The position numbers were made by a program, and so were the translations under genes. Shown in pieces: positions 24,468-53,845 of a stretch of DNA of 64,000 nt (positions are counted from its first letter, which is position 1; every line of letters begins with the position of its first letter). This DNA comes from Spirosoma montaniterrae. Lineage in GTDB: Bacteria > Bacteroidota > Bacteroidia > Cytophagales > Spirosomataceae. The notes beneath the pieces are model-generated. The model made no database searches, was not told the origin of the DNA, and saw only the letters and a list, made by a program, of their open reading frames with translations. The stretch is from positions 124,001 to 188,000 of the forward strand of contig NZ_CP014263.1 in the NCBI RefSeq assembly GCF_001988955.1, in the 5' to 3' direction.

Positions 24468-24489
24468 AATAGCATACAATTTTCTTTGC

Positions 24490-24503
24490 AATTGTACACA
24501 ATT
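24490..24503. promoter_or_regulatory. GntR-type operator palindrome, copy 1
   Basis: AATTGTACACAATT: arms AATTGT and ACAATT around two bases, as in FadR-subfamily GntR operators. It lies between the divergent transketolase and MFS genes. A related half-site (ACAATT) sits at 24476-24482. Identical 14-mers occur at 40792 and 41651. Confidence 0.7.
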
Positions 24504-24562
24504 AAGTAGAAGTTTGCAAGACAATACTTTTTATTTTAGCGAAAAAAAGCTGAGCTTCTCCC

Positions 24563-25867
24563 ATGTTTACGCCCTATACCGTGCCAACTGCTACAATTAC
24601 TACTCCGCCGGGCTGGTTTACGCGTACCCGCCACTGGTGGATTCTGGCAACGCTGTTCGGTGCTACGTTCTTAAACTATTTCGACCGGCAAACGCTTAGT
24701 GTTGCCATCGAACCGATTAGCCGCGAATTTGGCCTGACCACCGCCGACCGGGGTACGTTGCTGGCGGCTTTCGTGTATGCGTATGCGTGCGCCCACCTGT
24801 TCATTGGCTTTATCATCGACCGAGTCCAGAATATTCGCCGATTTTTCGCGGTGATGGTCGTTGGCTGGAGTGTATGTACGGTGCTGGTTGGCTTAACCAC
24901 TAACTCCACGCAGATTCTGTGGCTTCGCTACGCGCTGGGTGTGTTTGAAGCGGCCAATTTTCCGCTTTGTCTGCTACTGATTGCCCGGCTGTTTCCGGCC
25001 CGTCAGCGGAGTTTAGCTGCCGGTATTTTCAACAGCGGGGCTGTATTGGCAACGCTGACGGCCCCCAAATTAGTCATTTACTTCTCGACCGAGTTCAACT
25101 GGCGATACAGCTTTTACGTCACTGGTGGGCTGGGTCTGGTATGGCTCGTGTTTTGGTTGCTGGTGTATCGAAACCCCACCCCCGGCCCCTCCCCAGTAGG
25201 GAGGGGAGAAAACCATCCGGGTCCTGCTCCCCTCCCTATTGGGGAGGGGCCGGGGGTGGGGTTTGTGGGGTCACTTTTTCGACTGCCCGCTTTCTGGCTG
25301 ATTACGTTTATTGGTATCGGGTTGTTGCCGGGCTGGTATTTTATGTCGCAGTGGTTGCCAACCTACCTGACCCAACGCTGGAACGTGGCCTACAACCAAT
25401 CATTGGGCGACCGGCTTACGCTGGTTTATCTTGTACAGGACGTGGGCCTGTGGGTTGGCGGGGGGCTTGTGTGGTGGTTGAGCAAGCGCATGAATGTGCT
25501 GGCGGCCCGTAAAAGCGTGATTGTTGGTGCTTACGTACTGATGATGGCAATTGTGCTGCTGCCACAGGCTGAAACCATTGGCAGTACGCTGGCAATTCTG
25601 TGCGTATATGTGTTTGGTCTGGCAGCCTGGCAGGCTAACCAACAGGCGTTTAAGCAGGACGTACTGCCGGGTCGGGTGGCAACGGTAGCCGCGCTGGTAG
25701 GCTTTGCCGAAACGCTGTCGAGCGCGTTTCTGGTGCAGAAAGTGGGGCAGGTGGCGCAGGAGACGGGCGGATTCAACGCTATTTTCTGGTTGCTGGCCGG
25801 GTGCTTTACAGTGGCGATAGTGGCCGTGCTATGTTTACAAAAAAAGTGGATTCTAACGAATGGTTGA
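24563..25867 (+). CDS. MFS transporter (ACS family-like) with an in-frame palindromic insert
   Basis: Twelve-helix inner-membrane transporter of 434 residues. Helix 1 carries FLNYFDRQTLSVA, typical of anion:cation symporters for sugar acids; the loop GFIIDRVQNIRRFF is the conserved MFS loop. Between helices 6 and 7 (about residues 204-234) the chain contains a translated C-rich palindromic element (PTPGPSPVGRGE ... LPIGEGPGVGF) that is not part of the family. First gene of a plus-strand unit with the racemase-like, DUF4038 and esterase-apiosidase genes, opposite the transketolase unit and next to the 24490 operator. Confidence 0.9.
   Translation: MFTPYTVPTATITTPPGWFTRTRHWWILATLFGATFLNYFDRQTLSVAIEPISREFGLTTADRGTLLAAFVYAYACAHLFIGFIIDRVQNIRRFFAVMVVGWSVCTVLVGLTTNSTQILWLRYALGVFEAANFPLCLLLIARLFPARQRSLAAGIFNSGAVLATLTAPKLVIYFSTEFNWRYSFYVTGGLGLVWLVFWLLVYRNPTPGPSPVGRGENHPGPAPLPIGEGPGVGFVGSLFRLPAFWLITFIGIGLLPGWYFMSQWLPTYLTQRWNVAYNQSLGDRLTLVYLVQDVGLWVGGGLVWWLSKRMNVLAARKSVIVGAYVLMMAIVLLPQAETIGSTLAILCVYVFGLAAWQANQQAFKQDVLPGRVATVAALVGFAETLSSAFLVQKVGQVAQETGGFNAIFWLLAGCFTVAIVAVLCLQKKWILTNG
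25171..25264. repeat. C-rich palindromic repeat, copy 1 (inside MFS gene)
   Basis: 94-bp imperfect palindrome: left arm 25171-25206 beginning AAACCCCACCCCCGGCCCCT, right arm 25229-25264 ending GGCCGGGGGTGGGGTTT. Same family as 37487-37573 and 61335-61430. Here it is translated within the central loop of the transporter without breaking the frame. Confidence 0.9.
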
Positions 25868-26008
25868 GTGATTGAATGGTTGGATGATTGAGTGGTTGAA
25901 TGATTGAATGGAGTGCAAGGATTATACTCAATCATTCAACCACTCAATCACTTAACCATTCAATCACCCAATCATTCAACCATTCAATCATCCAACCATT
26001 CAATCACT
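25859..26008. repeat. 8-bp tandem arrays in inverted arrangement
   Basis: Left array (25859-25912) of 8-bp units of the form RATGRTTG, right array (25926-26008) of the complementary form (CAATCATT, CAACCATT, CAATCACT). Together they can form a very long imperfect hairpin between the MFS and racemase genes. The left array begins in the last codons of the MFS gene. Confidence 0.8.
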
Positions 26009-26012
26009 TTTT

Positions 26013-26831
26013 ATGATTTCTCTCTTCAGCGAATACATGCGCCTGACAGGTACGCCGACGCTCGGTAGCGAGCCGTCGGGAGACCCGGCATTGGTCGGTA
26101 AGAAACTCGGCGTAGTCAACGGGTCGAACTGGGTTAGTTTATGGTCTACGTATTTCGGGCGAACGGTGCTGCCGGGGGTGAAAATCGTGCAGGTGGGCAA
26201 TGAGGGCGTTCAACTTAACTTTATGGATGCCCACCACCGGGGCGATACCTGCCCACCCCAATTGAACATCGACCTGACCATCCGCTACGCCAAAGACCTT
26301 ATTGATCTGGTGGGCGTCGATGCCATCTTACTGTCGTGTTCAACCATGAATCGGGCGGCTCCGGCAGTTCGCGAAGCACTGGCTCCGCTGGGCGTGCCGG
26401 TGGTGCAGATTGACGAAGCCATGATGGAAGAAGCCGTGCAAACCGGTACCGCACCGGCGGACCGGACGGAGCGGGTTCGTGATGGAAAAATTCTGGTTGT
26501 AGCCACGCACGGTCCAACGGTGGCAAGTACGCAGGCTCTCCTTCAGGAAACAGCCGACCGTATGGGCAAGTCCGTTCAGTTTGCCGGAGCCACGGTAGAA
26601 GACGCCTTTCACCTGCTTGGCGACGGGCGTATCGAAGAGCACAATGAACTTATTGCCAACGTCATACGCGAAGCCCAGCAACACGATTCCATCGACGTAG
26701 TGGTGCTGGCGCAATTGTCGATGAGCGTGTTTTGCTTTTCGTATCCCGACCCGATAGCCGCGTTCGGCATACCCGTGCTGAACAGTGGCGAAACGGGCTT
26801 TCGGCGGGTAGGTGACGTATTAAACTCCTAA
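26013..26831 (+). CDS. Asp/Glu/hydantoin racemase-family protein
   Basis: Cytoplasmic protein of 272 residues with the two-domain racemase fold. Two candidate catalytic cysteines are present: one in AILLSCSTMNRAAPAVRE in the N-terminal half, the other in LAQLSMSVFCFSYPD in the C-terminal half, matching the pseudo-symmetric pair of this superfamily (aspartate/glutamate racemase, hydantoin racemase, maleate isomerase). The substrate is not evident; in a sugar-acid region it might act on a carboxylic acid intermediate (inference). It ends 6 bp before the next gene. Confidence 0.85.
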   Translation: MISLFSEYMRLTGTPTLGSEPSGDPALVGKKLGVVNGSNWVSLWSTYFGRTVLPGVKIVQVGNEGVQLNFMDAHHRGDTCPPQLNIDLTIRYAKDLIDLVGVDAILLSCSTMNRAAPAVREALAPLGVPVVQIDEAMMEEAVQTGTAPADRTERVRDGKILVVATHGPTVASTQALLQETADRMGKSVQFAGATVEDAFHLLGDGRIEEHNELIANVIREAQQHDSIDVVVLAQLSMSVFCFSYPDPIAAFGIPVLNSGETGFRRVGDVLNS

Positions 26832-26837
26832 AACTTT

Positions 26838-28424
26838 ATGAAAACCATCTTACTCCTCCTCTCAACCTGTCTCGCGGCATTGGCCGACGTACCGCGCTGG
26901 TCGGTGCAGGAAATTACCCTGACGGCGTCGGGGCGTTACAACAACCCCTACACCGACGCCCGCGTGTCGGCTACGTTTACCGGACCGGGCGGTGTCTCGC
27001 ACGAAGTGGGCGGATTCTGGTACGAAGGCAACACGTTTAAAATTCGGTTTACGCCCACTGCCGAGGGCCGCTGGACCTACGTAACGCGCTCTGCCGACAA
27101 GGGGCTGAACAACCAGAAAGGAAGCCTGACCTGCAATGCCCCGAAGGCTGGCAATCACGGGTTTATTCGGCGTGACGCCGACCATCCGCACCATTTTATG
27201 TATGACGATGGGACGCGATATTTCATGCTCGGCACAACGTATTACGGCATTCTCAGCACGGCCATTGCCGGAGATACGTGGAAACAGGCTATCGACAGTT
27301 GCGCCCACTATGGCATTACGAAAATCCGGTTTCGGGTCAATATAAAGCTCTGCAAAAACAGCACCCAGCCCGGCCCCTGCTCGTCGGTGTGGGGCAGCGA
27401 CGGCAAAGACCATGACCAACTTAACCCGGCGCATTTGCGGCTGGTCGATGAGGTGCTGACGTATATGAACGAGCGGGGCATTGTAGCCGATCTGATGCCG
27501 TTCGATTCGCAGGAGAGTTTTTATGGGACCGACGAGCAGGACTTGCGCTACCTCCGTTACCTGATGGCCCGATACGCATCTTACCCGAACGTAATCTGGT
27601 GTTTGACGAACGAGTTTCAGCGGGTGCCCAATAAACCGAGGGAGTTCTGGAACACAGCCGGGACAATTATCCGGCAGCATGACCCTTACGCAAGCTATAA
27701 ACAAAACCTGCGCCCGCTGTCGATTCACCCGTTTGGTGGGCAGAGCAACGGGGCTCAGTTCCAGTTTCACGACCAGCCGTGGCCGGTTCATGTCATTCTG
27801 CAATCGGGTCGGTTCGTGCCTGCCGATACGCTCAACGTGATTACGCTCCGCAACCGGGGCCATAATATGCCCATAGTCAATGATGAGTTTGGCTATTTCG
27901 ACGACGACATCCGCGAGTGGGGTAAGGGCGGCTATAATCAAACTGTGCATCGCAACGCCCTCTGGAGCATCTATTTAGCAGGCGGTTATGCCACTATTGG
28001 CGACAAGGCGCAATACGCCGACGGTAAACCGTATCACTCGGCCATCTGGCACCCGCGCCCCGAATACGCTGACCTGAAACACCTGAATACCTTTTTTACT
28101 AAAACCGGCCTGCCTTACTGGGCAATGGAACCGGCCAATACGTTAGTTTCGGCGGGCGAACGTACCTACGCGCTGGCTACCGGCGATGGTAAAATGGGCA
28201 TCGTCTACGCAGCCGCTGGCGGAACCGCTCAACTGCTATTGCCCTACGGCACCTACACGGCTCACCTGCTCGACCCGCGCACAGGCCGCGATACCGCCCT
28301 GCCCAACTGGACTGGCGGACAACCCGTTACACTGACATGTCCTGACACGCAGGATTGGGTTGTGTATTTCCGACGTAGTGGGCAGGGGCTTGCCCAGCAG
28401 GTTAGTAAAACGGTAAAAGATTGA
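26838..28424 (+). CDS. Exported DUF5060/DUF4038 glycoside hydrolase-like protein
   Basis: Exported protein of 528 residues. A short signal peptide precedes an Ig-like DUF5060 domain (about residues 20-115: EVGGFWYEGNTFKIRFTPT then EGRWTY). The DUF4038 TIM barrel follows (HHFMYDDGTRYFMLGTTYYG ... VIWCLTNEFQR), with the apparent acid/base in NEFQ. The C-terminal 90 residues form a small beta domain ending DTQDWVVYF, the putative collagen-binding type found in this family. Related proteins are glycosidases, including GH140 apiosidases. Its stop overlaps the vicinity of the next start (TTGAACACCATG), so the two are co-translated. Confidence 0.85.
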   Translation: MKTILLLLSTCLAALADVPRWSVQEITLTASGRYNNPYTDARVSATFTGPGGVSHEVGGFWYEGNTFKIRFTPTAEGRWTYVTRSADKGLNNQKGSLTCNAPKAGNHGFIRRDADHPHHFMYDDGTRYFMLGTTYYGILSTAIAGDTWKQAIDSCAHYGITKIRFRVNIKLCKNSTQPGPCSSVWGSDGKDHDQLNPAHLRLVDEVLTYMNERGIVADLMPFDSQESFYGTDEQDLRYLRYLMARYASYPNVIWCLTNEFQRVPNKPREFWNTAGTIIRQHDPYASYKQNLRPLSIHPFGGQSNGAQFQFHDQPWPVHVILQSGRFVPADTLNVITLRNRGHNMPIVNDEFGYFDDDIREWGKGGYNQTVHRNALWSIYLAGGYATIGDKAQYADGKPYHSAIWHPRPEYADLKHLNTFFTKTGLPYWAMEPANTLVSAGERTYALATGDGKMGIVYAAAGGTAQLLLPYGTYTAHLLDPRTGRDTALPNWTGGQPVTLTCPDTQDWVVYFRRSGQGLAQQVSKTVKD

Positions 28425-28429
28425 ACACC

Positions 28430-30709
28430 ATGAAGATACTCCTTTTCCTTCTCCTTTCCGTGGCGGTTCACGCCCAGATTCAGACGCTCACATATCCCTC
28501 GGCCCTCAATAAGCAGGACGTCCCGATTATGGTGTACTTGCCGCCCGGCTACGAAAGCAGCGCGGGACGTTACCCAGTGGTGTACAACCTGCACGGCGGG
28601 GGCGGCACACCCGAACGCCAATGGGATCGCACCCGCAAAACCCTGACCGATGCCATGGATAACCGGAAGGCCCGACCCATGATTTACGTGTATGTCAACG
28701 GCTTGGGCAATACCAACTTTGTCAATAACGCAGCCGGGAAGATGATCGAACGTAGCATCGTGACCGAGTTGATTCCATTCATCGACGCGAAATACCGAAC
28801 CATTGCCTCGCGCGAAGGGCGTGCCGTCGATGGTTTCTCCATGGGTGGCTACGGTGCGCTGATGCTGGCGTTCAAAAACCCCGAACTTTTCTCGTCGGTT
28901 GTATCGTATGGGGCCGCATTGGTGATTGGCGCAACCGATAAAAATTACAAAGATGCCGCCGATTTCGCCCAATATGACCCCCGTGCGCTTACGGTAAAAA
29001 ATCGCGGGGCCATTCTGAAAAACCTCCGCGTCCGCATGGTTTGTGGCGACAGCGACTGGCTGTTTACGAGCAACGTAAAGTTTCAGGCGCATTTGGATAG
29101 CCTGAAAATTCCGTCGGATTGGGTGGTAGTGCCGGGGCTGGCACACTGTACGCAATGCCTGTACGAAAACGTAGGGGTTGAGAGCCTGAAGTTCATAGAA
29201 GAAGGCTTCGCGCTGGCAACCAAAAAGAAGCCAATGAACGGCCCCTGGCAACGGCGCAAAAATGCCCCAATCGTGGCTAAGGTGAGCGGCTTTGGTAACG
29301 AACCCTTGCCCTACCGCCCGTCTGGAGCATTGCCGCGCCTGAAAGTGAGCGAGAACAAACGGTTTCTGGTGACAGAATCGGGGCGTCCGTTTTTCTGGCT
29401 GGCCGATACGGGCTGGATGCTGTTTCACAAACTCGACCGCGAAGAGATCGACAAATATTTCGAGAACCGGGCCGCGCAGCAGTTTTCGGTCGTGATGGGA
29501 ATGCTGTTGCCCTGGCTTCCGGGCCAGACAAACGTGTATGGCGAAACCGCTTTCGAGAACAGCGACTACACCAAACCCAATAAAAAATACTGGCAGCACG
29601 TCGATTACATCGTCGAACAGTCGGCGGCTAAGGGGCTGTATCTGTGCATGGTACCGGCCTGGGCGTTGAACTACGTAGAACCCAAAAAAGGCACGACCGA
29701 CACCACCAACCGGCTCGATGCCAGGACTGCCTACGCTTACGGCAAATTTCTGGGCAACCGTTACAATAAGGCTCTCAACATAGTCTGGATGCTGGGGGGC
29801 GACATCCGGCCCACACGCTACGCGGTCTACGACGCCCTTGCCAAAGGCATCACCGACGGCGTTGGTGGCGACCCCGATATGGCTCTGTTCACCTACCATC
29901 CGCCCTCTGGTCAACCGTCGTCGGTGGGGTTTTGCCATGATCGGCCCTGGCTCGATGTCAACTTAGTACAAACCGGCCACGATTACTGGCGGCTGGGCTA
30001 CAACATCATTGCCGCCAATTACGCCCTCACACCGCCGAAACCCACCGTCGACGGCGAACCGTGCTACGAAAATCACCCCGTTCGGCACAAGTTCGATAAC
30101 GGCGTTTTCACGGACTGGTACATGCGGATGCGGGCCTACTGGTCGTTGTTTGCGGGTGCGTTCGGTTATACCTATGGCGGTAACGGCGTCTGGCAGATGG
30201 ACAAAAAGGGTCAGGAACCGTTTCTGAAAACGCACGCTAATCTGAGTTGGGACGAAGCCCTTCACCTGCCCGGTGCCGAACAGATGCGGCACGTTCGCTC
30301 CCTGATGGAATCGCGCCCGTTTTTGAGCCGCCTGCCCGACGACGGCTCTATACTGCGTTCGCCGGTGGGCGAAAAAGCCGAACGTACCCAGGCTACCTTC
30401 GGGGCCGACCGGAGCTGGGCCATGATTTACCTGACGAGCGGGCAGAACGTAAAGCCTAACCTGACCAACCTGCGCGGGAAAACCCTCAACGGCTGGTGGT
30501 TCAACCCGCGCACGGGGCAAGTGTGCGACGAAACCGGGCAACCTACGGGCAAACCCTTCCGGCAGTTCACCCACGCCGAAGACAAAGTTGAACTGAACCC
30601 GCCCGGCGACCCCGGCGAAGGCAACGACTGGGTTTTGGTGCTGGACGATGCCGACCGTGGTTATCCGGTGCCGGGTACGGCAGTTGGGGCCGTAGCGGCA
30701 ACGAAATAG
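28430..30709 (+). CDS. Exported CE1-like esterase fused to GH140-like (DUF4038) apiosidase domain
   Basis: Two-enzyme exported protein of 759 residues. Residues 1-16 are a signal peptide. Residues about 17-265 form an alpha/beta-hydrolase esterase of the CE1/esterase-D kind with nucleophile Ser137 in GFSMGGYG and the probable histidine in GLAHCTQ. From about residue 285 a DUF4038 barrel begins (FLVTESGRPFFWLADTGWML) and continues through NIVWMLGGD and TVDGEPCYEN, with a C-terminal beta domain ending NDWVLVLDD. DUF4038 includes the GH140 apiosidases acting on rhamnogalacturonan-II. The fusion would let one protein remove an ester and a sugar from a plant glycan. The start used is the ATG at 28430, not the TTG at 28421. 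Confidence 0.85.
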   Translation: MKILLFLLLSVAVHAQIQTLTYPSALNKQDVPIMVYLPPGYESSAGRYPVVYNLHGGGGTPERQWDRTRKTLTDAMDNRKARPMIYVYVNGLGNTNFVNNAAGKMIERSIVTELIPFIDAKYRTIASREGRAVDGFSMGGYGALMLAFKNPELFSSVVSYGAALVIGATDKNYKDAADFAQYDPRALTVKNRGAILKNLRVRMVCGDSDWLFTSNVKFQAHLDSLKIPSDWVVVPGLAHCTQCLYENVGVESLKFIEEGFALATKKKPMNGPWQRRKNAPIVAKVSGFGNEPLPYRPSGALPRLKVSENKRFLVTESGRPFFWLADTGWMLFHKLDREEIDKYFENRAAQQFSVVMGMLLPWLPGQTNVYGETAFENSDYTKPNKKYWQHVDYIVEQSAAKGLYLCMVPAWALNYVEPKKGTTDTTNRLDARTAYAYGKFLGNRYNKALNIVWMLGGDIRPTRYAVYDALAKGITDGVGGDPDMALFTYHPPSGQPSSVGFCHDRPWLDVNLVQTGHDYWRLGYNIIAANYALTPPKPTVDGEPCYENHPVRHKFDNGVFTDWYMRMRAYWSLFAGAFGYTYGGNGVWQMDKKGQEPFLKTHANLSWDEALHLPGAEQMRHVRSLMESRPFLSRLPDDGSILRSPVGEKAERTQATFGADRSWAMIYLTSGQNVKPNLTNLRGKTLNGWWFNPRTGQVCDETGQPTGKPFRQFTHAEDKVELNPPGDPGEGNDWVLVLDDADRGYPVPGTAVGAVAATK

Positions 30710-30711: not shown

Positions 30712-31176
30712 TTACTCAACGGCAAAGACGCGAATTATCACTTCATCTGCCCGCCGTTCGCCCGTGGCAACAAACACGGTGCGGCCCAGCCAGTCGTGCG
30801 GGCCGGGGGCCACTTCAAACATTGGCGTGGTGCGGAAATAGTACTCGGCAGGATCGACCCATTCACCGTCGGCTACCCGTTTCAAGACCTCAGCCGGGCC
30901 GTGTCGGTAGCCCCGGTTGGTAATTAGAATCAATGTACCATCGTCGGTTTGCAGTGTATAGCGGGCTTCTACTTCGGCCACGCCATCGGGCCGAACTATC
31001 TGCCAGTCGGCCCCGCCGGGTAGCACATTCCCGCGCAACGGCGTACCGTCGGGCATGGTGCCGTTGAAGGTGCCGCCCGTAATTGGTATAATGCGCCGAT
31101 GGCCGCGTGTGGTAGGGCCGAGGTCCTGCATCGGGCCGAGCGTTGCCGTAATAACGAAGGCGGGGCTTAGGCGCAT
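30712..31176 (-). CDS. DUF3237 domain protein
   Basis: Protein of 154 residues matching the DUF3237 family: LGPTTRGHRRIIPITGGTFNG near the start, then LPGGADWQIVRPDGVAEVEARYTLQT and YFRTTPMFE. A small beta-barrel of unknown function, often next to flavin monooxygenases, as here: its start overlaps the stop of the upstream FAD monooxygenase gene by one base. It ends 2 bp from the convergent esterase-apiosidase gene. Role unknown. Confidence 0.82.
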   Translation of the reverse strand: MRLSPAFVITATLGPMQDLGPTTRGHRRIIPITGGTFNGTMPDGTPLRGNVLPGGADWQIVRPDGVAEVEARYTLQTDDGTLILITNRGYRHGPAEVLKRVADGEWVDPAEYYFRTTPMFEVAPGPHDWLGRTVFVATGERRADEVIIRVFAVE

Positions 31177-32420
31177 TATACCTGACTCAGTTTTTCGCGC
31201 TCAAACCCTGCTATCTGTTTGTAGCGTTGGGCGATAGTTTCCAACTCCCCGCGCGTAATCACGTCTTCTACTTGCTGAAAACCCAGTGGGGCGCGTTCTT
31301 CAGCCAGTTGCATCACTTGTTCAGGGCCGTTTTGCCGGTTCATCAACACAATCTGCGCCGTTGGGGCAAGCCGGGCTGTTTCGTAGGCTTGCAAAGCCGC
31401 CGGAATGTCGTCGGGCGAATTTGTTAGCGCGTCGGTGAGTGCGCGGGCGTCTAAAATGGCTTGCGATGCGCCATTGGAGCCGATAGGATACATGGGGTGG
31501 GCCGCGTCGCCCAGTAGCGTCACACGACCGAATGTCCAGCGGGGCAGCGGGTCGCGGTCAACCATTGGGTAAGCGTACACGGCGTCGGTTGAGTCGATCA
31601 GGGCTGGCACGTCGAGCCAGTCGAATTGCCAGTTGGCGAAAGGCGGGGCAAACGTAGCCGGGTCTGCTTTGCGGTTCCAGTCTTGCCGAACGGGCATCGT
31701 ATCGGTGCCCACGTTTAACTCAGCAATCCAGTTAACGCGCGAACGGCCCTGATACGCCAGCAGCGGGTCGATGGGGTAGGCCACAAACTTCTGGTCGGCA
31801 TGACCGATCATAACCATCGAGCGGCCCGTCAGAAACGGCTCGGCCACCGAAACGCCCCGCCACAGCATCCGCCCCGACCAGCGCGGCAAACCTTCGTCGG
31901 GGTAAAACGTGCGCCGAACTACCGAATGAATACCATCGGCCCCAACCAGCGCGTCGGCCCATTCGTCGGCTACGGTTTCGCCCGTTTCGCGATTTACAAA
32001 CCGTGCCCGAACCTGCTCGTCAAACGTCTCGAAGTCAGACAGGTGGCAACCCGTTCGCACGTTATCGGCACCCAGCCGGGCAATGGCTTCATCGAGCAGC
32101 AACATCTGCAACCGGCCCCGATGAATGGAGTACTGCGGCCAAGCATAGCCCGCAGCCCGACCACGCGGCTCGGTCCAGATGAGTTGCCCAAACTTATTGT
32201 AATAGCTCAGGTCGGCAGTCGGAATACCGGTGGTTTCCAATTGGGCTTGAAGCCCGAGCCGCGTCAGTTCGCGCACGGCATGGGGCAGCAGGTTGATGCC
32301 CACGCCCAGCGGCTGGAGCGTCGGCACCGATTCATAGACCCGAACCGAAATACCTGCGTCGTGTAGGGCGAGGGCCGTAACCAGCCCGCCAATGCCGCCC
32401 CCGGCAATTGTGATATGCAT
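31176..32420 (-). CDS. FAD-dependent monooxygenase (PhzS/salicylate hydroxylase-like)
   Basis: Group A flavin monooxygenase of 414 residues. The FAD-binding Rossmann motif is GGGIGG (residues 7-12), the second flavin motif DALVGADGIHSVVRR and the third GDAAHPMYPIGSNGASQAI. The last resembles the sequence seen in PhzS-type flavin-dependent oxidoreductases. It would use NAD(P)H and oxygen to hydroxylate an aromatic or enolic substrate in the cytoplasm. Paired with DUF3237 downstream. Why it sits in a sugar region is unclear; a plant phenolic released by the esterase is one possibility (inference). Confidence 0.88.
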   Translation of the reverse strand: MHITIAGGGIGGLVTALALHDAGISVRVYESVPTLQPLGVGINLLPHAVRELTRLGLQAQLETTGIPTADLSYYNKFGQLIWTEPRGRAAGYAWPQYSIHRGRLQMLLLDEAIARLGADNVRTGCHLSDFETFDEQVRARFVNRETGETVADEWADALVGADGIHSVVRRTFYPDEGLPRWSGRMLWRGVSVAEPFLTGRSMVMIGHADQKFVAYPIDPLLAYQGRSRVNWIAELNVGTDTMPVRQDWNRKADPATFAPPFANWQFDWLDVPALIDSTDAVYAYPMVDRDPLPRWTFGRVTLLGDAAHPMYPIGSNGASQAILDARALTDALTNSPDDIPAALQAYETARLAPTAQIVLMNRQNGPEQVMQLAEERAPLGFQQVEDVITRGELETIAQRYKQIAGFEREKLSQV

Positions 32421-32422
32421 AC

Positions 32423-32507
32423 TGATTGACTGTTGAATGATTGATTTGTTGAATGAAATGTTGGTGTTTATTCAATCATGCAACAAGTCAATCATTCAAT
32501 CATTGAT
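32423..32507. repeat. Inverted 8-bp-type repeats between gntR and the monooxygenase gene
   Basis: Left part with TTGAATGATTG and TTGTTGAATG units, right part with CAATCATGCAAC and CAATCATTCAATCATTG. Same sequence style as 25859-26008. It may act as a terminator for the gntR unit. Confidence 0.6.
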
Positions 32508-33206: not shown

Positions 33207-33212
33207 AGATTG

Positions 33213-33246
33213 TTGTATTCGGTTGTACGAATATCTGCATACAATT
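33213..33246. promoter_or_regulatory. GntR half-sites upstream of gntR
   Basis: Three TTGTA-type half-sites: TTGTATTC (33213-33220), TTGTACGA (33223-33230) on the plus strand and AATTGTATGC on the minus strand (33237-33246). They fall just before the gntR start and suggest weak autoregulation. Confidence 0.4.
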
Positions 33247-33274
33247 TGGTTAACCAACGAAATGCAGACCCGGT

Positions 33275-34165: not shown

Positions 34166-34167
34166 GT

Positions 34168-37470: not shown

Positions 37471-37486
37471 AGTGATTTGAAGGTTT

Positions 37487-41650: not shown

Positions 41651-41664
41651 AATTGTACACAATT
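41651..41664. promoter_or_regulatory. GntR-type operator palindrome, copy 3
   Basis: AATTGTACACAATT between the divergent genes 40824-41561 and 41730. On the plus strand a TTTTTG (41666-41671) and, 19 bases on, TATTTAG (41691) are weak candidates for -33 and -7 elements, placing the operator directly upstream of the promoter. Confidence 0.65.
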
Positions 41665-44006: not shown

Positions 44007-44063
44007 TTTGTTTGAATCGATTGCCAGCGGATTTGTGCATGTATCCTCTAAACCTTAATCGTT

Positions 44064-47000: not shown

Positions 47001-47255
47001 GTAGAAGATGGGTCGTTTCTGCGCATCCGAACCGTTTCGCTGGGTTATAACCTGCCCACGGCGTTGCTGAAACCGCTGGGCCTGCGCGGGGGGCGGGTAT
47101 ACGCGCTAATGCAGAACCCGCTGATGCTGAGCAACTACATGGGTTATAATCCCGACGTTAGTTTCAGTGGTCGGGCCGTGCTGAACCCCGGCGTCGATTA
47201 TGGCACCTATCCGCTGGCCCGCGCCACTACGTTTGGTTTGACTGTAGATTTTTAA
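44064..47255 (+). CDS. SusC/RagA-family TonB-dependent outer-membrane transporter 2
   Basis: Outer-membrane transporter of 1063 residues. Signal peptide, carboxypeptidase-like domain (VNGRVTDETGSGLPGVSVA), plug (VVVVGYGEQNRRDVTGSVAS, QALTGQLAGVQVQ, EPLYVVDGFPG, LKDASAAAIYGSRGANGVV) and beta-barrel ending YPLARATTFGLTVDF. It follows the hydrolase gene by 57 bp and precedes susD2 by 12 bp. Distinct from SusC1 in sequence, so the region has two uptake systems, probably for different fragments. Confidence 0.96.
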   Translation: MKSVLAIQFLGCFFYTLFVCFPAISVAETSGAQKAAAADRTVNGRVTDETGSGLPGVSVAVKGTNRGTTTDAEGRYRIAVPDSPGTILVFSFVGYLAQEVRVGNQSALNVSLQIDTKALSEVVVVGYGEQNRRDVTGSVASISARQIENVPVTGLDQALTGQLAGVQVQETTGAPGGTINVRVRGSGSIGAGNEPLYVVDGFPGVTNITAINPNDIQSIEVLKDASAAAIYGSRGANGVVIITTKQGRNGRTTFRLDTYTGFQNVLRKVDVLNATEYAKFHIDSKNNAYADAGGITDFTRFKNSRRPIGNQVLPLYLLNDSSNVINPALGAGTDWQDAIFRTAPINNVQLTATGGNERTRFAVTGGYFNQQGIIVSSGFQRYSVRLNLDTDLTRTVKLGINLAPTFSQRQIVNSDDTWSREGVVLTALTISPHIPLQLPDGTYPGQYQLGTPGFNAMINPYAIATQYKQGEKEFTTTGRLYLDWNPLPGLTARTSIGTNVVSSSYNGYYPSYLGRGGSAPPSLARAEARPSLLFNWVNTNTLTYTRSLAGKHNLLFLLGNETQKQGVEDTYVRGEKFSSDAAPYVGAAGLITAGSGGLSEWSLLSYFGRVTYDYAGRYLLTFNIRRDGSSRFGPNYKWGTFPSASAGWQVLDEPFMQSVKPVVSALKLRASYGLGGNNNIGNYAYQGLLSDQNYIFGAGLGELVTGLAPASLVNPDLRWETSRQGDVGIDAGFFNDRLQLTVDYYDKVTQDLLLNVNVPRITGYQRILTNIGRVRNWGWEFSLNSRNLKGGSGLEWTTNLNLSFNRNKVLALGATGDRILSGTSQIFESHVVEVGQPLGNFYGYQILGVFNTQEEINNHARWGSGPVTRPGDYKFQDTNGDGIINASDRTILGNAFPKLIYGLTNNFRYRGIELSVLIQGNYGNQVINGTSRFMATQRPGNNQYRRVIEGAWQSPENPGTGYARLGGSSNNIINMNSIWVEDGSFLRIRTVSLGYNLPTALLKPLGLRGGRVYALMQNPLMLSNYMGYNPDVSFSGRAVLNPGVDYGTYPLARATTFGLTVDF

Positions 47256-47267
47256 CCGGCTATCACC

Positions 47268-48749
47268 ATGAAATTCATCCGTTTTTCTTCGGCCCTGCTG
47301 TTGCTGACCCTGAGCGGCTGTAGCGAATCGTTTCTGGACCTACAGCCCAACACGCAGGTTTCTACGAATACGTTTTACCAATCGGCGTCTGATTTCCGGA
47401 CGGCGGTCAATGCGGCCTACGCGGCTCTACAGGCCGACGGACTGTACGGTAGCGTTTACATCCATTTCTCGGAAGTACCCGCCGACAATGCGGGCGTTCA
47501 GAACCCCAACGGCGCGGGTGGCATTGCCCAGAACGAGTTCGATCAGTTTGTGGTGACGCCCGTAAACCCCAGCCTGCTGTCGTTTTATTCGGCCAGTTAT
47601 GCGGCCATTCAGCGGTGCAACATTGTGCTGGGCCGCATCGAAGCCTCGGCAGTTACGCCCGCGCTGAAAAACCAGTTTACCGGTGAAACCAGGTTTATTC
47701 GGGGGCTGATGTATTTCAATCTGGTACGGTTTTTCGGCGGGGTGCCGCTGGTACTGAACGAAATCAACGCTGCCGAAGAGGGTTACACCTACACGCGGGC
47801 CTCGGCGGATGACGTGTACAAACAGGTTCTGGCCGACCTGACCGATGCCGAAACCAAACTGCCCGTTTCGTATACCGGAGCCGATATTGGCCGGGCCACG
47901 AGCGGAGCCGCCAAAGCCCTGCTCGGTAAGGTGTATTTGACCCAGAAAAATTACGCGCAGGCTGTTGTGAAACTCAAAGAGGTGATCGACCTGACCGGTA
48001 CGGGTGGGCGCGTGTATGACCTGGCTCCCCGTTACATCGACAATTTCGACCCGGCCCGTTCTAATAATTCAGGGCACAAAGAATCCCTATTTGAGATTCA
48101 GTACAAAACGGGCGGTATCGGCGAAGGCAGTGGCTATACCAACGGGTCGGCCCCACCCAACGGGCCGCTTACGCTAACGGGTGTGGGTAACGGCAATGGG
48201 CAGTTTATCTGGCCCACCGTGCAGGTATTCAACGCGTTTCCGCGTTCTGACCCGCGCCGGTCGGCCAATCTCGATTCGCTGATTATCAATGGGCAGTTGC
48301 AACGGTACGTTAAAAAATACCTGCAACCCGTTTACGGCTCCATTCCGTTCAATCAGGCGGATTCGGACATGAACTTTCCGGTGCTGCGCTTTGCCGATGT
48401 GCTGCTGATGTACGCGGAGGCACTCAACGAAACCAATAGCGGTCCCAACGCCGTAGCTTACGACGCCATCAACCGCGTTCGTCGGCGGGCACACGGTGTT
48501 ACAACGTCGGCCTTCGACATACCCGCCGGGCTGAACAAGGCGGCTTTTGCGCTGGCAGTCGAAAACGAACGACGGCTCGAACTGGCTTTTGAGGGCCACC
48601 GCTGGCCCGACCTGGTTCGGACCGACCGGGCCATTCCGGTCATGACCGCGCTGGGCTTTCGCGTACAGCCGCACCAATTGATTTTTCCGATTCCGCAGGC
48701 CGAAATTGACATTAATCCGGGTAAAATGACGCAGAATCCGGGGTATTAG
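47268..48749 (+). CDS. SusD/RagB-family nutrient-binding lipoprotein 2
   Basis: Surface lipoprotein of 493 residues, the partner of SusC2. Lipobox LSGC near residue 18, then SESFLDLQPN, the standard SusD opening. Helical repeat segments (AIQRCNIVLGRIEAS, ETRFIRGLMYFNLVRFFGGVPL) and the C-terminal RagB domain (LRFADVLLMYAEALNE, RRLELAFEGHRWPDLVRTDR) end in IDINPGKMTQNPGY. Confidence 0.96.
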   Translation: MKFIRFSSALLLLTLSGCSESFLDLQPNTQVSTNTFYQSASDFRTAVNAAYAALQADGLYGSVYIHFSEVPADNAGVQNPNGAGGIAQNEFDQFVVTPVNPSLLSFYSASYAAIQRCNIVLGRIEASAVTPALKNQFTGETRFIRGLMYFNLVRFFGGVPLVLNEINAAEEGYTYTRASADDVYKQVLADLTDAETKLPVSYTGADIGRATSGAAKALLGKVYLTQKNYAQAVVKLKEVIDLTGTGGRVYDLAPRYIDNFDPARSNNSGHKESLFEIQYKTGGIGEGSGYTNGSAPPNGPLTLTGVGNGNGQFIWPTVQVFNAFPRSDPRRSANLDSLIINGQLQRYVKKYLQPVYGSIPFNQADSDMNFPVLRFADVLLMYAEALNETNSGPNAVAYDAINRVRRRAHGVTTSAFDIPAGLNKAAFALAVENERRLELAFEGHRWPDLVRTDRAIPVMTALGFRVQPHQLIFPIPQAEIDINPGKMTQNPGY

Positions 48750-48779
48750 CCGTAGTTTTTTCATAGGTTGGATGTGAAT

Positions 48780-48811
48780 CCTCCGGTGGCTCTGTCAGCG
48801 GAGGTATTTTT
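48780..48811 (+). terminator. Possible attenuator/terminator hairpin after susD2
   Basis: CCTCCG (48780-48785) pairs with CGGAGG (48799-48804) across a 13-base loop and is followed by a T-rich run (TATTTTTA). It could partly stop transcription before the glycosidase gene. Confidence 0.4.
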
Positions 48812-48839
48812 AGGCCAACCGTCCTTTCCCTTATTCCCC

Positions 48840-51212
48840 ATGCGTTTTTTCCTTTCATTACTGCTTCTGCTATCGGTTGTTGGGTCTGGTTTCGCCCAAA
48901 CGCCCCTCAACCTCGCGCGGGCCGTTGTTTACTGCCCGACCGGCGCCACCACACCCGAACGAAAGGCCGCTCAGATGCTGGTCGAAGAGATTCAGAAACG
49001 AACCCGAATTCGGTTGGCGCAAGCGACGCAGTGGCCCACCAGCAACTCGCCCGTTATTGCCGTAGGGCAGGCCGTCGCGCTGAAAAAAACAGGCCGAAAA
49101 GCACCTCCGGTCCAAACGCCTAAAGACGGTTTTCAGGTACGTGTCGATGCTGCGCCGGGGCAACCAATCATCTGGGTGCAGGGCAACGACCCACGTGGCA
49201 CAGTCTTCGGTGCTGGCTGGCTGCTGCGGCAGCTAACCCTGATGCGGGATACGGTTCTGGCGGATAATTCGCTGGCCATCAGCACAGCCCCGCAAACTCC
49301 GCTCCGGGGGCATCAGTTGGGCTACCGGGCCACGCCCAACTCCTACGACGGCTGGGACCTTGCCCAGTGGGAGCAGTACATCCGCGATTTAGTCGTGTTT
49401 GGAGCCAATGCCATCGAACTGATTCCACCCCGCTCCGATACCGACCGCGACAGTCCCCATTTTCCGTTGCCACCCATGGAAACCATGATTGGTATGTCGC
49501 AACTGGCGGCTGATTATGGCTTAGACGTGTGGGTGTGGTATCCGGCCCTGGACGATGATTACAGCAAGCCCGAAACGGTGCAGTTTGCCCTCAACGAGTG
49601 GGGCAACGTGTTGAAGCAACTGCCGAAACTAAACGCCATTCTGGTGCCCTGTGGCGACCCCGGCCATACCCCGCCCCAACTGCTGGTGCCGATGCTGGAA
49701 AAACAGGCGGCTCAGTTGAAAAAATACCATGCCAATGTACAGTGGTGGATGTCGCCCCAGGGGTTCGATGAGAAGCGGCTCGCTACCTTCAAAGCCCTGA
49801 TTGAGCAAAACCCGCCCTGGCTGACAGGACTGGCTTATGGCCCCTGGATGCGGCTGTCGCTGCCCGATTTTCGGAAGTGGACGCCCGCCCGTTACCCCAT
49901 CCGGCAATACCCCGATATTACGCACTCGCACCGCTGCCAGTATCCCGTGCCCGACTGGGACTATGCCTACGTGCTGACGCAGCACCGCGAACCCATCAAC
50001 CCGCGCCCGCAGGATATGGCAGCCATTTATCGCTATTCCGCCCCGCACACCATCGGCTACATCACGTATTCGGAAGGCTGCAACGACGATGTGAACAAAG
50101 CCATCTGGAGTGCGCTCGGCTGGGATCCAAACCAGCCCGTTGACCAGATTCTGCGCGAATACAGCCGCTACTTTATTGGCCCCGCCGTAGCCGACCGTTT
50201 TGCCAGCGGATTACAGCGTCTGGAACAAAACTGGCGCGGCTCCGTTCGGACCAACACCGGGATTGATAGTACGCTGGCTCTTTTTCAGCAAGTAGAACAG
50301 CAGGCCGGGCCGCATTTATTGCAAAACTGGCGATTTCAGCAGGCTCTGTTTCGGGCGTATTATGATGCTTATGTCCGGCAGCGGGTTTTGCACGAACAGC
50401 ACCTCGAAACCGATGCACTGGCAATGCTGACAAATGCACCCGTATTAGGGTCGGCGGGGGCCATGCAACGGGCTGTTGAGCGGCTGGCAGAGGCCGAAAC
50501 ACAACCGGTAGCGTTACCGCTGAAAATGCGGGTATTGGAGTTAGGCGAAGCGTTGTTCCAAACCATAAACATGCAGTTGTACATGAAACGCCACGCGGCT
50601 GTACGCTCCGACGGGGCCACGCTCGAACGGCTGAATACGCCCCTCAACAACCGTTCGTATGTGCTCCAACGTTTTAGTTCAATTGCTACGTTGACTACTG
50701 AAAACGAACGACTTGTGCAGCTCCGGGCGTTGCAGGCCGAACTACAGCCGCATGAAAATCAGCCCGGCGTACTGTATGACGATCTCGGCAATCCGGCCCG
50801 GCAACCGCATCTGGTAAAAGCCGACACGTACAAAAATGATCCCGATTTTTTGAAAACGCCATTGACCATTAACGAGCAGCGGGCACCCGGTTCACTACGT
50901 TACCCGCTATCGTGGTACAGTCATGTCATGGGCCTCTACGACCAACCCATTCGGCTGCATTACGACGGTCTCGACCCGGCGGCCCGCTACAAAGTACGGG
51001 TTGTATATGCCAGTGGCCCGGTGCGCATGGTGGCGAATCAGAACACAGAAATCCATCCACTGCAAAAAAAAGAATTTACATTGCTGGAGTACGACTTGCC
51101 CGCCGAAACTACCCGCACGGGTACGCTCGATCTCTCGTGGACGGGTACGCCCCGTGCGGGCGAGTCGGGTCGGGGGAATCAGGTGAGTGAGGTATGGTTG
51201 ATAAAGCAGTGA
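48840..51212 (+). CDS. Exported glycosidase with GH67/GH20-like architecture
   Basis: Exported protein of 790 residues from the ATG at 48840, which gives a signal peptide ending GFAQ; the upstream in-frame ATG at 48768 adds a stretch with no signal character. Residues about 30-145 form the small alpha/beta domain (ERKAAQMLVEEIQKRT) that precedes the catalytic barrel in alpha-glucuronidases and hexosaminidases. The barrel follows (RGHQLGYRATPNSYDGWDL, FGANAIELIPPRSD, DVWVWYPALDDD) and a helical C-terminal part. Similar proteins include GH67-type alpha-glucuronidases, but the exact family is uncertain. With a hexuronate-type transporter downstream, a uronic acid substrate is plausible. Confidence 0.7.
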   Translation: MRFFLSLLLLLSVVGSGFAQTPLNLARAVVYCPTGATTPERKAAQMLVEEIQKRTRIRLAQATQWPTSNSPVIAVGQAVALKKTGRKAPPVQTPKDGFQVRVDAAPGQPIIWVQGNDPRGTVFGAGWLLRQLTLMRDTVLADNSLAISTAPQTPLRGHQLGYRATPNSYDGWDLAQWEQYIRDLVVFGANAIELIPPRSDTDRDSPHFPLPPMETMIGMSQLAADYGLDVWVWYPALDDDYSKPETVQFALNEWGNVLKQLPKLNAILVPCGDPGHTPPQLLVPMLEKQAAQLKKYHANVQWWMSPQGFDEKRLATFKALIEQNPPWLTGLAYGPWMRLSLPDFRKWTPARYPIRQYPDITHSHRCQYPVPDWDYAYVLTQHREPINPRPQDMAAIYRYSAPHTIGYITYSEGCNDDVNKAIWSALGWDPNQPVDQILREYSRYFIGPAVADRFASGLQRLEQNWRGSVRTNTGIDSTLALFQQVEQQAGPHLLQNWRFQQALFRAYYDAYVRQRVLHEQHLETDALAMLTNAPVLGSAGAMQRAVERLAEAETQPVALPLKMRVLELGEALFQTINMQLYMKRHAAVRSDGATLERLNTPLNNRSYVLQRFSSIATLTTENERLVQLRALQAELQPHENQPGVLYDDLGNPARQPHLVKADTYKNDPDFLKTPLTINEQRAPGSLRYPLSWYSHVMGLYDQPIRLHYDGLDPAARYKVRVVYASGPVRMVANQNTEIHPLQKKEFTLLEYDLPAETTRTGTLDLSWTGTPRAGESGRGNQVSEVWLIKQ

Positions 51213-51216
51213 AAAG

Positions 51217-51780
51217 ATGTCTATGACGACGCACGACGAATTCGTACCAGCAGGCTCCATTCCGCTGGGGGTTTACGAATGCCCGGTGCCGTACAAGCGG
51301 CTACTGACCCCGGTTATGCTGGCGCACCTGAGCGCGACGTGCCGGATCAAGTACCACAAAGACACCTCCTGTAATACGGCGGACGTAGCAGCCAAATTAG
51401 TCGTTGTACCCCGCCCGGACTTTGGCTTTTTCGACGCGCATCTGCCCAATGCCGTGGCATCGTTGCGGCTGGGAGCCAGTGGGTTATCGCCCATCGCGGC
51501 CAATTACTTTCCGGAAGTTGTGGCCTGGTTGTGTCAGCACGTTCACGACCCGGCTGAACAGGAAACCGTCGATTGGCTACAGGCTGAACTAACCCGCATC
51601 AACGCCCTGATTCATGAACAGTACCCGACCAGTGCCAAACAGTTTTTGCGGAACCGGGGCTTACCCATAACCACCGTTTGCCGAACGGCGTCGAGTACGT
51701 TGCCTGCCAAACATCACACCGCCCTCAGCGCATTACACCGTAACGTGGCCGAGTGGCACGAACGGCTGAACCTGAATTAA
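51217..51780 (+). CDS. N-terminally truncated DHDPS/N-acetylneuraminate lyase-family protein
   Basis: Protein of 187 residues corresponding only to the C-terminal part of a dihydrodipicolinate synthase-family aldolase (usually about 300). It starts just before the barrel strand with the catalytic tyrosine region (IPLGVYECPVPYKRLL) and keeps the Schiff-base lysine segment (IKYHKDTSC) and FDAHLPNAVASLRLGASG. The first 110-130 residues, including the substrate-binding GTTGE-type loop, are absent; the upstream bases belong to the glycosidase, which ends 4 bp earlier. Either a decayed remnant or a domain kept for another purpose. An intact relative would cleave or dehydrate a keto-deoxy sugar acid. 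Confidence 0.7.
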   Translation: MSMTTHDEFVPAGSIPLGVYECPVPYKRLLTPVMLAHLSATCRIKYHKDTSCNTADVAAKLVVVPRPDFGFFDAHLPNAVASLRLGASGLSPIAANYFPEVVAWLCQHVHDPAEQETVDWLQAELTRINALIHEQYPTSAKQFLRNRGLPITTVCRTASSTLPAKHHTALSALHRNVAEWHERLNLN

Positions 51781-51794
51781 CACACGCAACGCCA

Positions 51795-53111
51795 ATGCAA
51801 CCGAATCTGCCCGCATCTTCCACCGATCTACCCGGAACACTCCGGCAGCCATCAGTCGCTACCCTGGGTCGGTTTCGCTGGCGGATTGGGGCACTGATTG
51901 CCTTCGCCAATACCATCAATTACATCGACCGGCAGGTGCTGGGGCTGCTTGCACCCGACCTGCAACGGCAGTTTGGCTGGTCGGAGGTGGAGTACGGTTA
52001 TATTGTCACGGCGTTTCAGGGGGCGTTTGCGGTGGGGTATCTGCTGTTCGGCTGGTTTATCGACCGTTACGGCACTAAAATCGGCTATGCTTTGGCCTTG
52101 ACACTCTGGAGTCTGGCCGCTATGGGTCACGGGTGGGCGCGGTCGGTAGTTCAGTTCGGGCTGGCGCGGGCGGTGCTGGGGTTGGGCGAAGGCGGCAATA
52201 CTCCGGCGGCCATCAAAGCGTTCTCCGAATATTTCCCGAAGCGGGAGCGGGCGTTCATTACGGGAATTTTTACGGCGGGGTCGAGTCTGGGGGCGGTGCT
52301 GGCCCCAATAGTGGTGCCGTTGCTGGCCGTTACGTTCGGCTGGCCAATGGCTTTCTTCGTAACGGGCGGGCTGGGGCTACTGTGGCTCATCGGCTGGTGG
52401 GCCTGGTACGAACGACCCGAAGCTCAAAAACGGCTGTCGGCAAGCGAACTGGCGTACATCCGCAGCGATGGCGACGTAGCGACTGGCCCCGCACCGACCT
52501 GGGCAAGTTTGCTTCGTTATCGGGCCACCTGGGCATTTGTGCTGGCCAAGTTTCTGACCGATCCCATTTTCTGGTTTTACCTCTACTGGCTCCCCAAATT
52601 CTTACAGAAACAATATGGCCTGAACATCACCGCATCCATTGGTCCACTGGTGTTCATCTACAGCGTTGTAGCCATCGGTGGCACGGTTGGTGGCTGGCTG
52701 TCGTCGCGGCTGTTGCAGCGCGGCTGGTCGGTGAACCGAAGCCGAAAATCCGTTATGCTCGCGTCGGCCCTGCTGATTACGCCCATTATTGGTGCGGCCT
52801 TCACGCAAAACCTGTGGCTGGCCGTTTGCCTGATTGCCCTGGCCGCAGCGGCTCACCAAAGCTGGTCGGCGGTGCTGTTCACGACCGTTTCCGACCAGTT
52901 TCCGCAGCAGGCCGTCGCGTCGGTGGTGGGTATTGGCGGCATGGCCGGGGCAGCAGGCGGTATGCTCATCGCCACCGCTACCGGCTACCTGCTCGATGCC
53001 ACGGGTAGCTACCTGCTCATCTTCGCCGTAGCCGCGTCGATTTATCTCGTCGCGCTGGGGCTATTTCAATGGTTAGTACCAACACTAAAAGGCAACATTC
53101 AAGGACTATGA
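51795..53111 (+). CDS. MFS transporter, hexuronate (ExuT-like) family
   Basis: Inner-membrane symporter of 438 residues from the ATG at 51795, 14 bp after the previous stop (51753 is an earlier in-frame start inside that gene). Twelve helices; helix 1 has FANTINYIDRQVLGLLAPDL and the loop GWFIDRYGTKIGYA, both typical of bacterial hexuronate transporters of the anion:cation symporter family. The neighbouring GH67-like enzyme and RraA aldolase fit uptake of a uronic or aldonic acid. The stop overlaps the start of the next gene (ATGA). Confidence 0.9.
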   Translation: MQPNLPASSTDLPGTLRQPSVATLGRFRWRIGALIAFANTINYIDRQVLGLLAPDLQRQFGWSEVEYGYIVTAFQGAFAVGYLLFGWFIDRYGTKIGYALALTLWSLAAMGHGWARSVVQFGLARAVLGLGEGGNTPAAIKAFSEYFPKRERAFITGIFTAGSSLGAVLAPIVVPLLAVTFGWPMAFFVTGGLGLLWLIGWWAWYERPEAQKRLSASELAYIRSDGDVATGPAPTWASLLRYRATWAFVLAKFLTDPIFWFYLYWLPKFLQKQYGLNITASIGPLVFIYSVVAIGGTVGGWLSSRLLQRGWSVNRSRKSVMLASALLITPIIGAAFTQNLWLAVCLIALAAAAHQSWSAVLFTTVSDQFPQQAVASVVGIGGMAGAAGGMLIATATGYLLDATGSYLLIFAVAASIYLVALGLFQWLVPTLKGNIQGL

Positions 53112-53845
53112 CTCATTCCGAACTGCTTAAGCTCAAACGCTGGAACACGCCTACCGTTTATAACGGCTGGGAGCAAATTACCCGCCACGACACAACACGG
53201 GGCCATTTTAACCTCGACGAAACCCGCGACTACATGCCGCAGATGGGGCCGATGGTTGGCTACGCCGTAACAGTCGTGTGCGAACCGAGTAACCCGAAAC
53301 ACCTGCGCGAGAACCCCGACAACCTGCGGGCTTACCGCGAGTACATCGCCAGTGTGCCCGGCCCCAAAATCGTGGTCGTGCAGGATTTAGATAACCCGCA
53401 CATCGGCTCGTACTGGGGCGAGGTCAACGCCAATATCCACCGGAGTCTGGGTTGCGTAGGCACCATCACCCACGGGGCCATCCGCGACGTGGACGAGATG
53501 ACCAATGCCGGCTTTAAAGCCCTTGCCAAACGGATGTGCGTAGGCCATGCGTTTAGCTGGCCCGTGCGCTGGGGCGTCGAGGTCGAGGTGTTCGGTTGCC
53601 CGGTGAAGCCCGGCGATCTGATTCATGCCGATAAACATGGTTTCTTAGTGATTCCGCCTGAAGATCAGGACCGGATTTACGAAGCCAGTTGCTTTATGGA
53701 TGCCAACGAGTGCAACACGGTCATTGCAGCCGCCCGCGACGTAGCCGGACGACCCATGCCCGAGGTGCTGGCTGCCATGAATCAGGCTGGGGCCGATTTT
53801 GGCAAAGCCGCGCTGGAGAAATTTGGTCGAAAAGGTGAGTGGTGA
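53108..53845 (+). CDS. RraA-family aldolase/decarboxylase-like protein
   Basis: Cytoplasmic protein of 245 residues from the ATG at 53108, which overlaps the transporter's stop. It belongs to the RraA/HMG-CHA aldolase superfamily: HGAIRDVDEM carries the Arg and Asp of the active site, and VFGCPVKPGDLIHADKHGFLVIP is the conserved C-terminal GD(L/V)xxAD segment. Metal-dependent members split 4-hydroxy-4-methyl-2-oxoglutarate-type acids or decarboxylate oxaloacetate. In this setting it may cleave a branched keto acid made from the imported sugar acid (inference). Last gene of the unit; a hairpin follows. Confidence 0.85.
   Translation: MTHSELLKLKRWNTPTVYNGWEQITRHDTTRGHFNLDETRDYMPQMGPMVGYAVTVVCEPSNPKHLRENPDNLRAYREYIASVPGPKIVVVQDLDNPHIGSYWGEVNANIHRSLGCVGTITHGAIRDVDEMTNAGFKALAKRMCVGHAFSWPVRWGVEVEVFGCPVKPGDLIHADKHGFLVIPPEDQDRIYEASCFMDANECNTVIAAARDVAGRPMPEVLAAMNQAGADFGKAALEKFGRKGEW

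Follow-up and report, generated by a model that had tools for sequence, protein, structure and literature searches.

A predicted GntR regulon with palindromic operators in a 32-kb glycan and sugar catabolism island of Spirosoma montaniterrae

Which protein controls a glycan and sugar catabolism island in which the same palindrome recurs at several promoters? Bacteroidota glycan loci are usually described as having local sensors, among them ECF sigma/anti-sigma pairs. Hybrid two-component systems (HTCS) and SusR-like proteins are further local sensors of such loci (PMC3878776). The question is raised by a window of 64,000 nucleotides of Spirosoma montaniterrae DNA (bases 124001-188000 of the single 5,797,678-base contig; positions below are those of the window), for which an earlier note, made from the letters alone, had proposed a circuit of three palindromes and one FCD-type GntR regulator. 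Our analysis indicates that the region from 21553 to 53845 (32 kb, 22 genes, five units) very probably forms one regulon, in which the product of gntR would bind the palindromes and hold the units in check (Table 1).

The palindromes and the GntR protein

The 14-mer AATTGTACACAATT was found as exact copies at 24490, 40792 and 41651, just as the earlier note had reported, compared with none expected from 100 shuffles. All three copies are intergenic and 5' of genes; the copy at 24490 lies between divergent transketolase (-) and major facilitator superfamily (MFS) transporter (+) genes. In the whole genome, AATTGTNNACAATT occurs at exactly three places, all of them the window sites, and the reversed control pattern gave no match. 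The note had held that many unrelated copies would speak against a shared regulator; the genome-wide search revealed no extra copy of the 14-mer. Chance or low complexity as the origin of the palindromes was ruled out by the shuffles and the whole-genome counts.

Variants with one mismatch to the 14-mer occupy 14 further places in the genome. When up to two mismatches were allowed, 192 matches were obtained, against 127 for the reversed control pattern. Two-mismatch matches are therefore so common that only the exact or nearly exact form is informative, and they were not accepted as extra regulon members. Six near-matches outside the window were inspected. Four of them belong to the 14 one-mismatch places, and one of these four also matches ATTGTNNACAAT; the other two are further ATTGTNNACAAT places. 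Of the six, four fell within open reading frames (ORFs), one at the end of an ORF and one just 5' of an ORF. No island homologue was seen beside them when the first residues of the neighboring ORFs were read by eye, and all six were rejected as regulon members on gene context.

All three exact copies of AATTGTNNACAATT in the genome lie no more than 9.2 kb from gntR, which encodes its only FCD-domain protein, so that no FCD paralogue competes for the role. Under uniform placement, three sites would lie this close to a given gene with a probability of about 3e-8, a value that was calculated after the fact. The gene is on the same strand as susC1 and downstream of it, with palindromes at susC1 and at api3-susC2. 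The claim that gntR is the only regulator gene in the region was upheld, since no other regulator was recognized among the 22 proteins encoded between 21553 and 53845 (Pfam; 2 of the 22 without a match).

The gntR product matches the Pfam families FCD (PF07729; 2.2e-20) and GntR (PF00392; 2.7e-14), both above cut-off. It has the architecture of the FadR/FCD subfamily, with an N-terminal winged helix and a C-terminal FCD domain, and its start agrees with those of its orthologues. Residues D143, H147, H191 and H213, presumed to form the metal site of the FCD domain (one Asp, three His), do not vary among three orthologues and align with the D/H/H/H set of 3fms. By analogy with other FCD proteins, the conserved residues suggest a small carboxylate effector here. 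As far as the passages on operators in PMC4494728 go, the FadR-subfamily consensus consists of TKGT and ACMA boxes whose GT and AC are 2 to 3 nucleotides apart. The predicted sites TTGT-AC-ACAA and TTGT-AT-ACAA fit this consensus with a spacing of 2 nucleotides, and we infer that the TTGT-NN-ACAA sites would be operators of the gntR product.

Sites and targets in related genomes

None of 35 genus-mates held a close relative of gntR, although 10 of them gave remote matches (24-37% identity). In these genomes, 12 copies of the 14-mer pattern were counted over about 261 Mb (totals added up by hand), that is, one per approximately 22 Mb. Six of the 12 copies are inside ORFs of at least 110 aa, and no island homologue was seen by eye beside any of the 12. 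One genus-mate (G030; locus L032, 9880-10340) carries an identical AATTGTACACAATT followed by AATTGTAGACAAT just 5' of an OhrR/MarR-like regulator gene, as noted by eye.

Orthologues were few. Among 222 genomes of the family, one other orthologue was detected at E 1e-10 or better (G084; 45% identity). With a threshold of E 1e-25, orthologues were present in two of 390 evenly drawn genomes of the order, G286 and G298; 395 evenly drawn genomes of the class contained no other, and eight genomes of the family of G286 none further. A scan of named genome contigs returned one gntR locus (L028), belonging to the Cytophagales metagenome-assembled genome (MAG) YX1bin7, which is G286. This MAG represents a different family, and its GntR protein is 58% identical to that of the window over the alignment and 59% over the best segment.

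In the 6.4 Mb of G286, AATTGTNNACAATT occurs exactly twice, both times on the gntR contig and within 23 kb of gntR. With the motif fixed beforehand and uniform placement, the chance of this arrangement is about 5e-5. The first copy occupies the promoter of a split transketolase at the same position as in the window. The second lies about 270 bp 5' of a susC that aligns with susC2 in two pieces, of 53% and 42% identity. Next come a susD with 46% identity to susD2 and a gene resembling api2 (39%); a gene resembling api1 (46%) is situated between this site and gntR. In addition, ATTTGTATACAATT is found close to where a DUF1537-type kinase gene starts, with gntR directly 3' of the kinase gene. The kinase ORF, as called from TTG, includes ATTTGTATACAATT, and its first domain begins at residue 58. 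The regulator, its sites and its targets are conserved in another family, and the link between GntR and palindrome drawn in the earlier note gained support from the two G286 copies at the transketolase and susC/susD genes.

G298, a fragmented MAG of the same genus as G286 (75% complete), contains three exact copies. One precedes a transketolase homologue (contig C120), one a susC-like start that resembles that of G286 by eye (C23) and one is apparently coding (C76); the last was not counted as an operator. Its gntR-kinase cassettes (L041 and L042) carry TTGTATACAA sites, and the C120 copy of gntR is interrupted. A second gntR copy on C129 (47% identical to that of the window) lies near GH5-like and racemase-like genes, with a TTGTATACAA site 5' of the kinase-gntR pair. 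A DUF1537-type kinase is encoded beside gntR in both MAGs. In G084, two related imperfect sites are located 22 bp apart just before its own gntR; a further candidate, TTTTGTATACAAAT (L031, 7490), was not counted because it is inside a putative ORF.

Places matching ATTGTNNACAAT numbered 14 in G286, 14 in G298 and 10 in G084. Four extra ATTGTATACAAT-centred sites were inspected, one in G286 and three in G298 (L049-L052); three are in ORFs and one is intergenic. The intergenic one (L052, 2949; G298 contig C167) reads AATTGTATACAATG and lies 261 bp before a sulfatase-like gene, as seen by eye; it is possibly a further target and was left uncounted.

A matrix was built from six sites of the relatives only: three of G286, two of G084 and one of G298 (C129). 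Two C120 sites and the C23 site of G298 were left out as near-duplicates of G286 sites. When applied to the window, the matrix placed the three palindromes at ranks 1 to 3 with 22.97 bits each. This score was reached at 0 positions in 20 simulated 64-kb windows (first-order Markov), where the best was 20.0. Rank 4 was the site at 24468 (13.1), 22 bp from operator 1, rank 5 the site at 33233 in the gntR promoter (11.8), rank 6 a position in an unrelated SMP-30-like gene (17284) and rank 7 the site at 41628. Another match, at 18396, falls in a penicillin-binding-protein gene. The gene table used here covered 21553-55692, and matches beyond it were not labelled as coding.

Promoter architecture and alternative explanations

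Promoters of Bacteroidota follow the consensus TTTG/TAnnTTTG. Inspected by eye, the right arm of operator 1, TACAATTG, can serve as a -7 element in the minus direction. For the transketolase promoters in the window and in L028 and L042 alike, a TTG precedes TACAATTG by about 20 bp, and the center of the operator is about 30 bp ahead of the start codon. The right arm thus probably doubles as the -7 element of these promoters. The susC1 promoter shows TACGTTTG as its -7 element and the half-site TTGTGTG at -33 (by eye). Occlusion of promoter elements by the operators argues for repression, and GntR is probably a repressor.

The statement of the earlier note that the palindromes are always in a promoter spacer was roughly right, the sites overlapping or abutting the likely -33 and -7 elements by eye. 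Its picture of three sites two helical turns apart near susC1 was partly right: there is one full site with half-sites some 22-23 bp away, and these flanks are outside the top 14 matrix matches, which do include 24468, 33233 and 41628. The TTGTA half-sites it had described before gntR were recovered at 33213, 33223 and 33240 (TTGTA or TACAA); nowhere else in the window do three of them fall within 60 bp.

We propose that the FCD GntR binds AATTGTACACAATT as a dimer at three promoter regions. Weaker binding would take place 22-23 bp from these sites and also at the gntR promoter, the latter leading to autoregulation. In this manner GntR would hold five units in check. They would provide glycan uptake through two SusCD pairs, hydrolysis, transport across the inner membrane through two MFS proteins and the breakdown of sugars or sugar acids, the last by means of the split transketolase and the racemase-like, oxidoreductase and aldolase genes. 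Release of GntR is probably triggered when a small intermediate, a hydroxy or sugar acid, occupies the metal site of its FCD domain. We infer binding, repression, autoregulation, transcript limits, inducer and substrate from these comparisons of sequence.

GntR could instead activate its targets, or activate some promoters and repress others. At api3 and susC1 the main operator is located, by eye, just 5' of the likely -33 element, a position also used by activators. However, at all three transketolase promoters (window, L028 and L042) the operator lies, by eye, over the likely -7 element, about 30 bp ahead of the start codon. This fits repression, and we regard activation as unlikely. It should be noted that the promoter elements were assigned by eye from the consensus given above, and this weighs against the proposed regulon, as do several observations in the other genomes. 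The same 14-mer pattern exists in other genomes of the genus, once 5' of a MarR/OhrR-like gene, showing that such palindromes are not private to GntR and that sequence alone cannot name the protein. A regulator encoded elsewhere, for example of the MarR/OhrR type with similar operators, might accordingly bind the palindromes, as the identical 14-mer in G030 would allow. Nevertheless, every exact copy in the S. montaniterrae genome and in G286 is near gntR and sugar genes, no second regulator was recognized among the 22 island proteins and the gntR promoter scores fifth in the window, which makes this explanation quite improbable.

Further points to be set against a regulon governed by GntR concern its distribution and partners. 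The gene was found only as five copies in four genomes, and two of these copies come from a MAG of poor quality. Behind the G286 site, susC reads as two open frames, and parts of the G298 loci do likewise. The exact palindrome is absent near gntR of G084. There the neighbor of the gene (L029) is a SusCD locus that also encodes a PQQ dehydrogenase, a heparinase II/III-like protein and three sulfatases, and this lineage of GntR may therefore be used for more than a single substrate. In both G286 and G084 the locus further contains genes for an ECF sigma factor and a FecR-like protein, so GntR is not the sole regulator there. Finally, the palindromes could be chance occurrences or relics of copied promoter DNA with no regulatory meaning. 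Sites 2 and 3 have a 21-bp core in common, and duplication may have produced one from the other. Against this stand the expectation of 0 from shuffling, the lack of further copies in 5.8 Mb and the recurrence of this palindrome type beside homologous genes of another family, and we consider it extremely improbable.

Taken together, the single circuit joining SusCD pairs, MFS transporters, transketolase, hydrolases and aldolase that the earlier note had suggested is well supported by the uniqueness of the sites in the genome, the single FCD gene and G286. It also reaches further than stated: unit A, next to the site at 24490, extends to 21553, beyond the limits of 24468-53845 given before.

Gene content, substrate and known systems

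Proteins encoded between 21553 and 53845 were scanned with Pfam and NCBIfam, and the resulting gene content is listed in Table 1.

Table 1. Predicted regulatory sites and gene units of the island in window positions (units were grouped by strand and spacing, not from transcripts)
Feature	Position	Strand	Sequence or genes	Context
Unit A	21553-24467	-	Transketolase N (23559-24467), transketolase C (22592-23572), GH5-like protein (21553-22569)	
Accessory operator (predicted)	24468-24481	-	AATTGTATGCTATT	22 bp from operator 1; fourth-best matrix match
Operator 1 (predicted)	24490-24503		AATTGTACACAATT	Divergent promoter of transketolase N (-) and MFS1 (+); same position in L028 and L042
Unit B	24563-30709	+	MFS1, Asp/Glu-racemase-like, DUF5060/apiosidase-like api1, esterase-apiosidase-like fusion api2	
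Unit C	30712-40700	-	susC1, susD1, GFO/IDH/MocA oxidoreductase, TIM-barrel isomerase-like, gntR, FAD monooxygenase, DUF3237	
gntR	32508-33206	-	HTH_GntR + FCD regulator, 232 aa	Predicted repressor
Weak operator (predicted)	33233-33246	-	AATTGTATGCAGAT	gntR promoter; fifth-best matrix match
Operator 2 (predicted)	40792-40805			5' of susC1; half-sites about 22-23 bp on either side
Unit D	40824-41561	-	Protein of about 245-250 aa, no family match	
Weak accessory site (predicted)	41628			23 bp from operator 3; seventh-best matrix match
Operator 3 (predicted)	41651-41664			Between the gene for the protein of about 245-250 aa (-) and api3-susC2-susD2 (+)
Unit E	41730-53845	+	api3 (apiosidase-like), susC2, susD2, 814-aa protein without family, short DHDPS-like, MFS2, RraA-like aldolase	

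Unit C may form one or more transcripts, all of its genes being on one strand. Between gntR and the FAD monooxygenase gene (32421-32507), an imperfect inverted repeat with TGAATGATTGA and TCAATCATTCA arms was seen by eye, possibly a terminator. The unit D protein is probably secreted (by eye). Its start (40824-41561) resembles the N-terminal part of api3 (41730-44006) by eye, and neither part has a Pfam match. In unit E, the DHDPS-like protein (51217-51780, 187 aa) matches only the C-terminal half of the profile and may be a half-barrel or a fragment.

Three of the island hydrolases resemble apiosidases (family GH140). The api2 product (28421-30709), in which feruloyl-esterase-like, apiosidase-like and Collagen_bind_2 domains are fused, matches the solved apiosidase 8t9w with E 1.5e-96 and 3kzs/5msy with 1.9e-65; the matches of api1 and api3 are more remote. 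The substrate of the regulon is perhaps an apiose-containing plant glycan. AptA and AptB form the split transketolase of D-apiose degradation at a locus of E. coli SE15, according to passages of PMC13001218. The two-gene transketolase of the island resembles this system, and the island also has apiosidase-like hydrolases. It differs in that no FGGY kinase (AplK) was found among the 22 island proteins (Pfam), no ABC transporter was seen and the regulator belongs to another family than in the passages concerned. Identity to AptAB is 41% (N) and 37% (C), no higher than the 42-44% between transketolase N and other short transketolase-N proteins. Apiose is therefore a lead rather than a finding, and the AptAB route is no more than a candidate.

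The G+C content of 2-kb bins is 0.53-0.60 from 22001 to 54000, compared with 0.48-0.56 before; after the island it is 0.51-0.52 over 6 kb and then 0.55 to the window end. Transketolase N is 81% identical to its homologue in the other family, against at best 44% in the other 221 genomes of its own, and the transketolase C and GH5-like proteins are 73% and 66% identical to those of L028. The core cassette with its regulator and operators was likely acquired horizontally. A bolder and tentative idea, which we consider possible but doubtful, is a self-contained mobile catabolic island for a branched plant sugar of the apiose type. Regulator, operators, split transketolase and racemase-like and GH5-like genes would travel together between families of the order, and each host would plug its own SusCD pairs into the GntR circuit. 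If so, the route, with its split transketolase and, in relatives, a DUF1537-type kinase, would differ from the apiose pathways known to us.

One cytoplasmic GntR protein appears to place a pair of SusCD systems, together with part of central carbon metabolism, under a single switch. The locus also offers a case in which the surface machinery differs between families but the regulator, its operators and the core enzymes have been kept. Since the exact operator occurs genome-wide only at presumed targets, the regulon, its inducer and its pathway are directly testable.

FadR-subfamily regulators, as presented in passages of PMC4494728, share with this system the helix-turn-helix plus FCD architecture, the TTGT-NN-ACAA palindrome and sites in divergent promoters. 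Their half-boxes lie 7-12 nucleotides from the site center, whereas the accessory sites described here are about 22 bp away, center to center. GntR regulators of the FadR family are also present in alginate polysaccharide utilization loci of Bacteroides eggerthii and B. ovatus (PMC11381880), which likewise combine gntR with SusCD and an MFS transporter but contain alginate lyase genes; no operator is reported in the passages concerned. In the open literature searched, with subscription papers outside its scope, there was no report of this regulon or of ATTGTATACAAT in connection with GntR. The belief of the earlier note that no such regulon is known holds for these genes, but not for the type of control. 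A GntR-family repressor of alginate catabolism, AusR, was reportedly described in Zobellia galactanivorans by Dudek et al. in 2020 (NAR gkaa533). AusR is thus also a GntR-family repressor of Bacteroidota glycan catabolism, reportedly with an FCD domain and with SusCD genes among the units it controls, and it differs in serving alginate where the present island has apiosidase-like hydrolases and a split transketolase. The closest earlier case is the Zobellia alginate repressor; repression of a Bacteroidota glycan locus by a GntR protein was known before, and the regulon itself is new.

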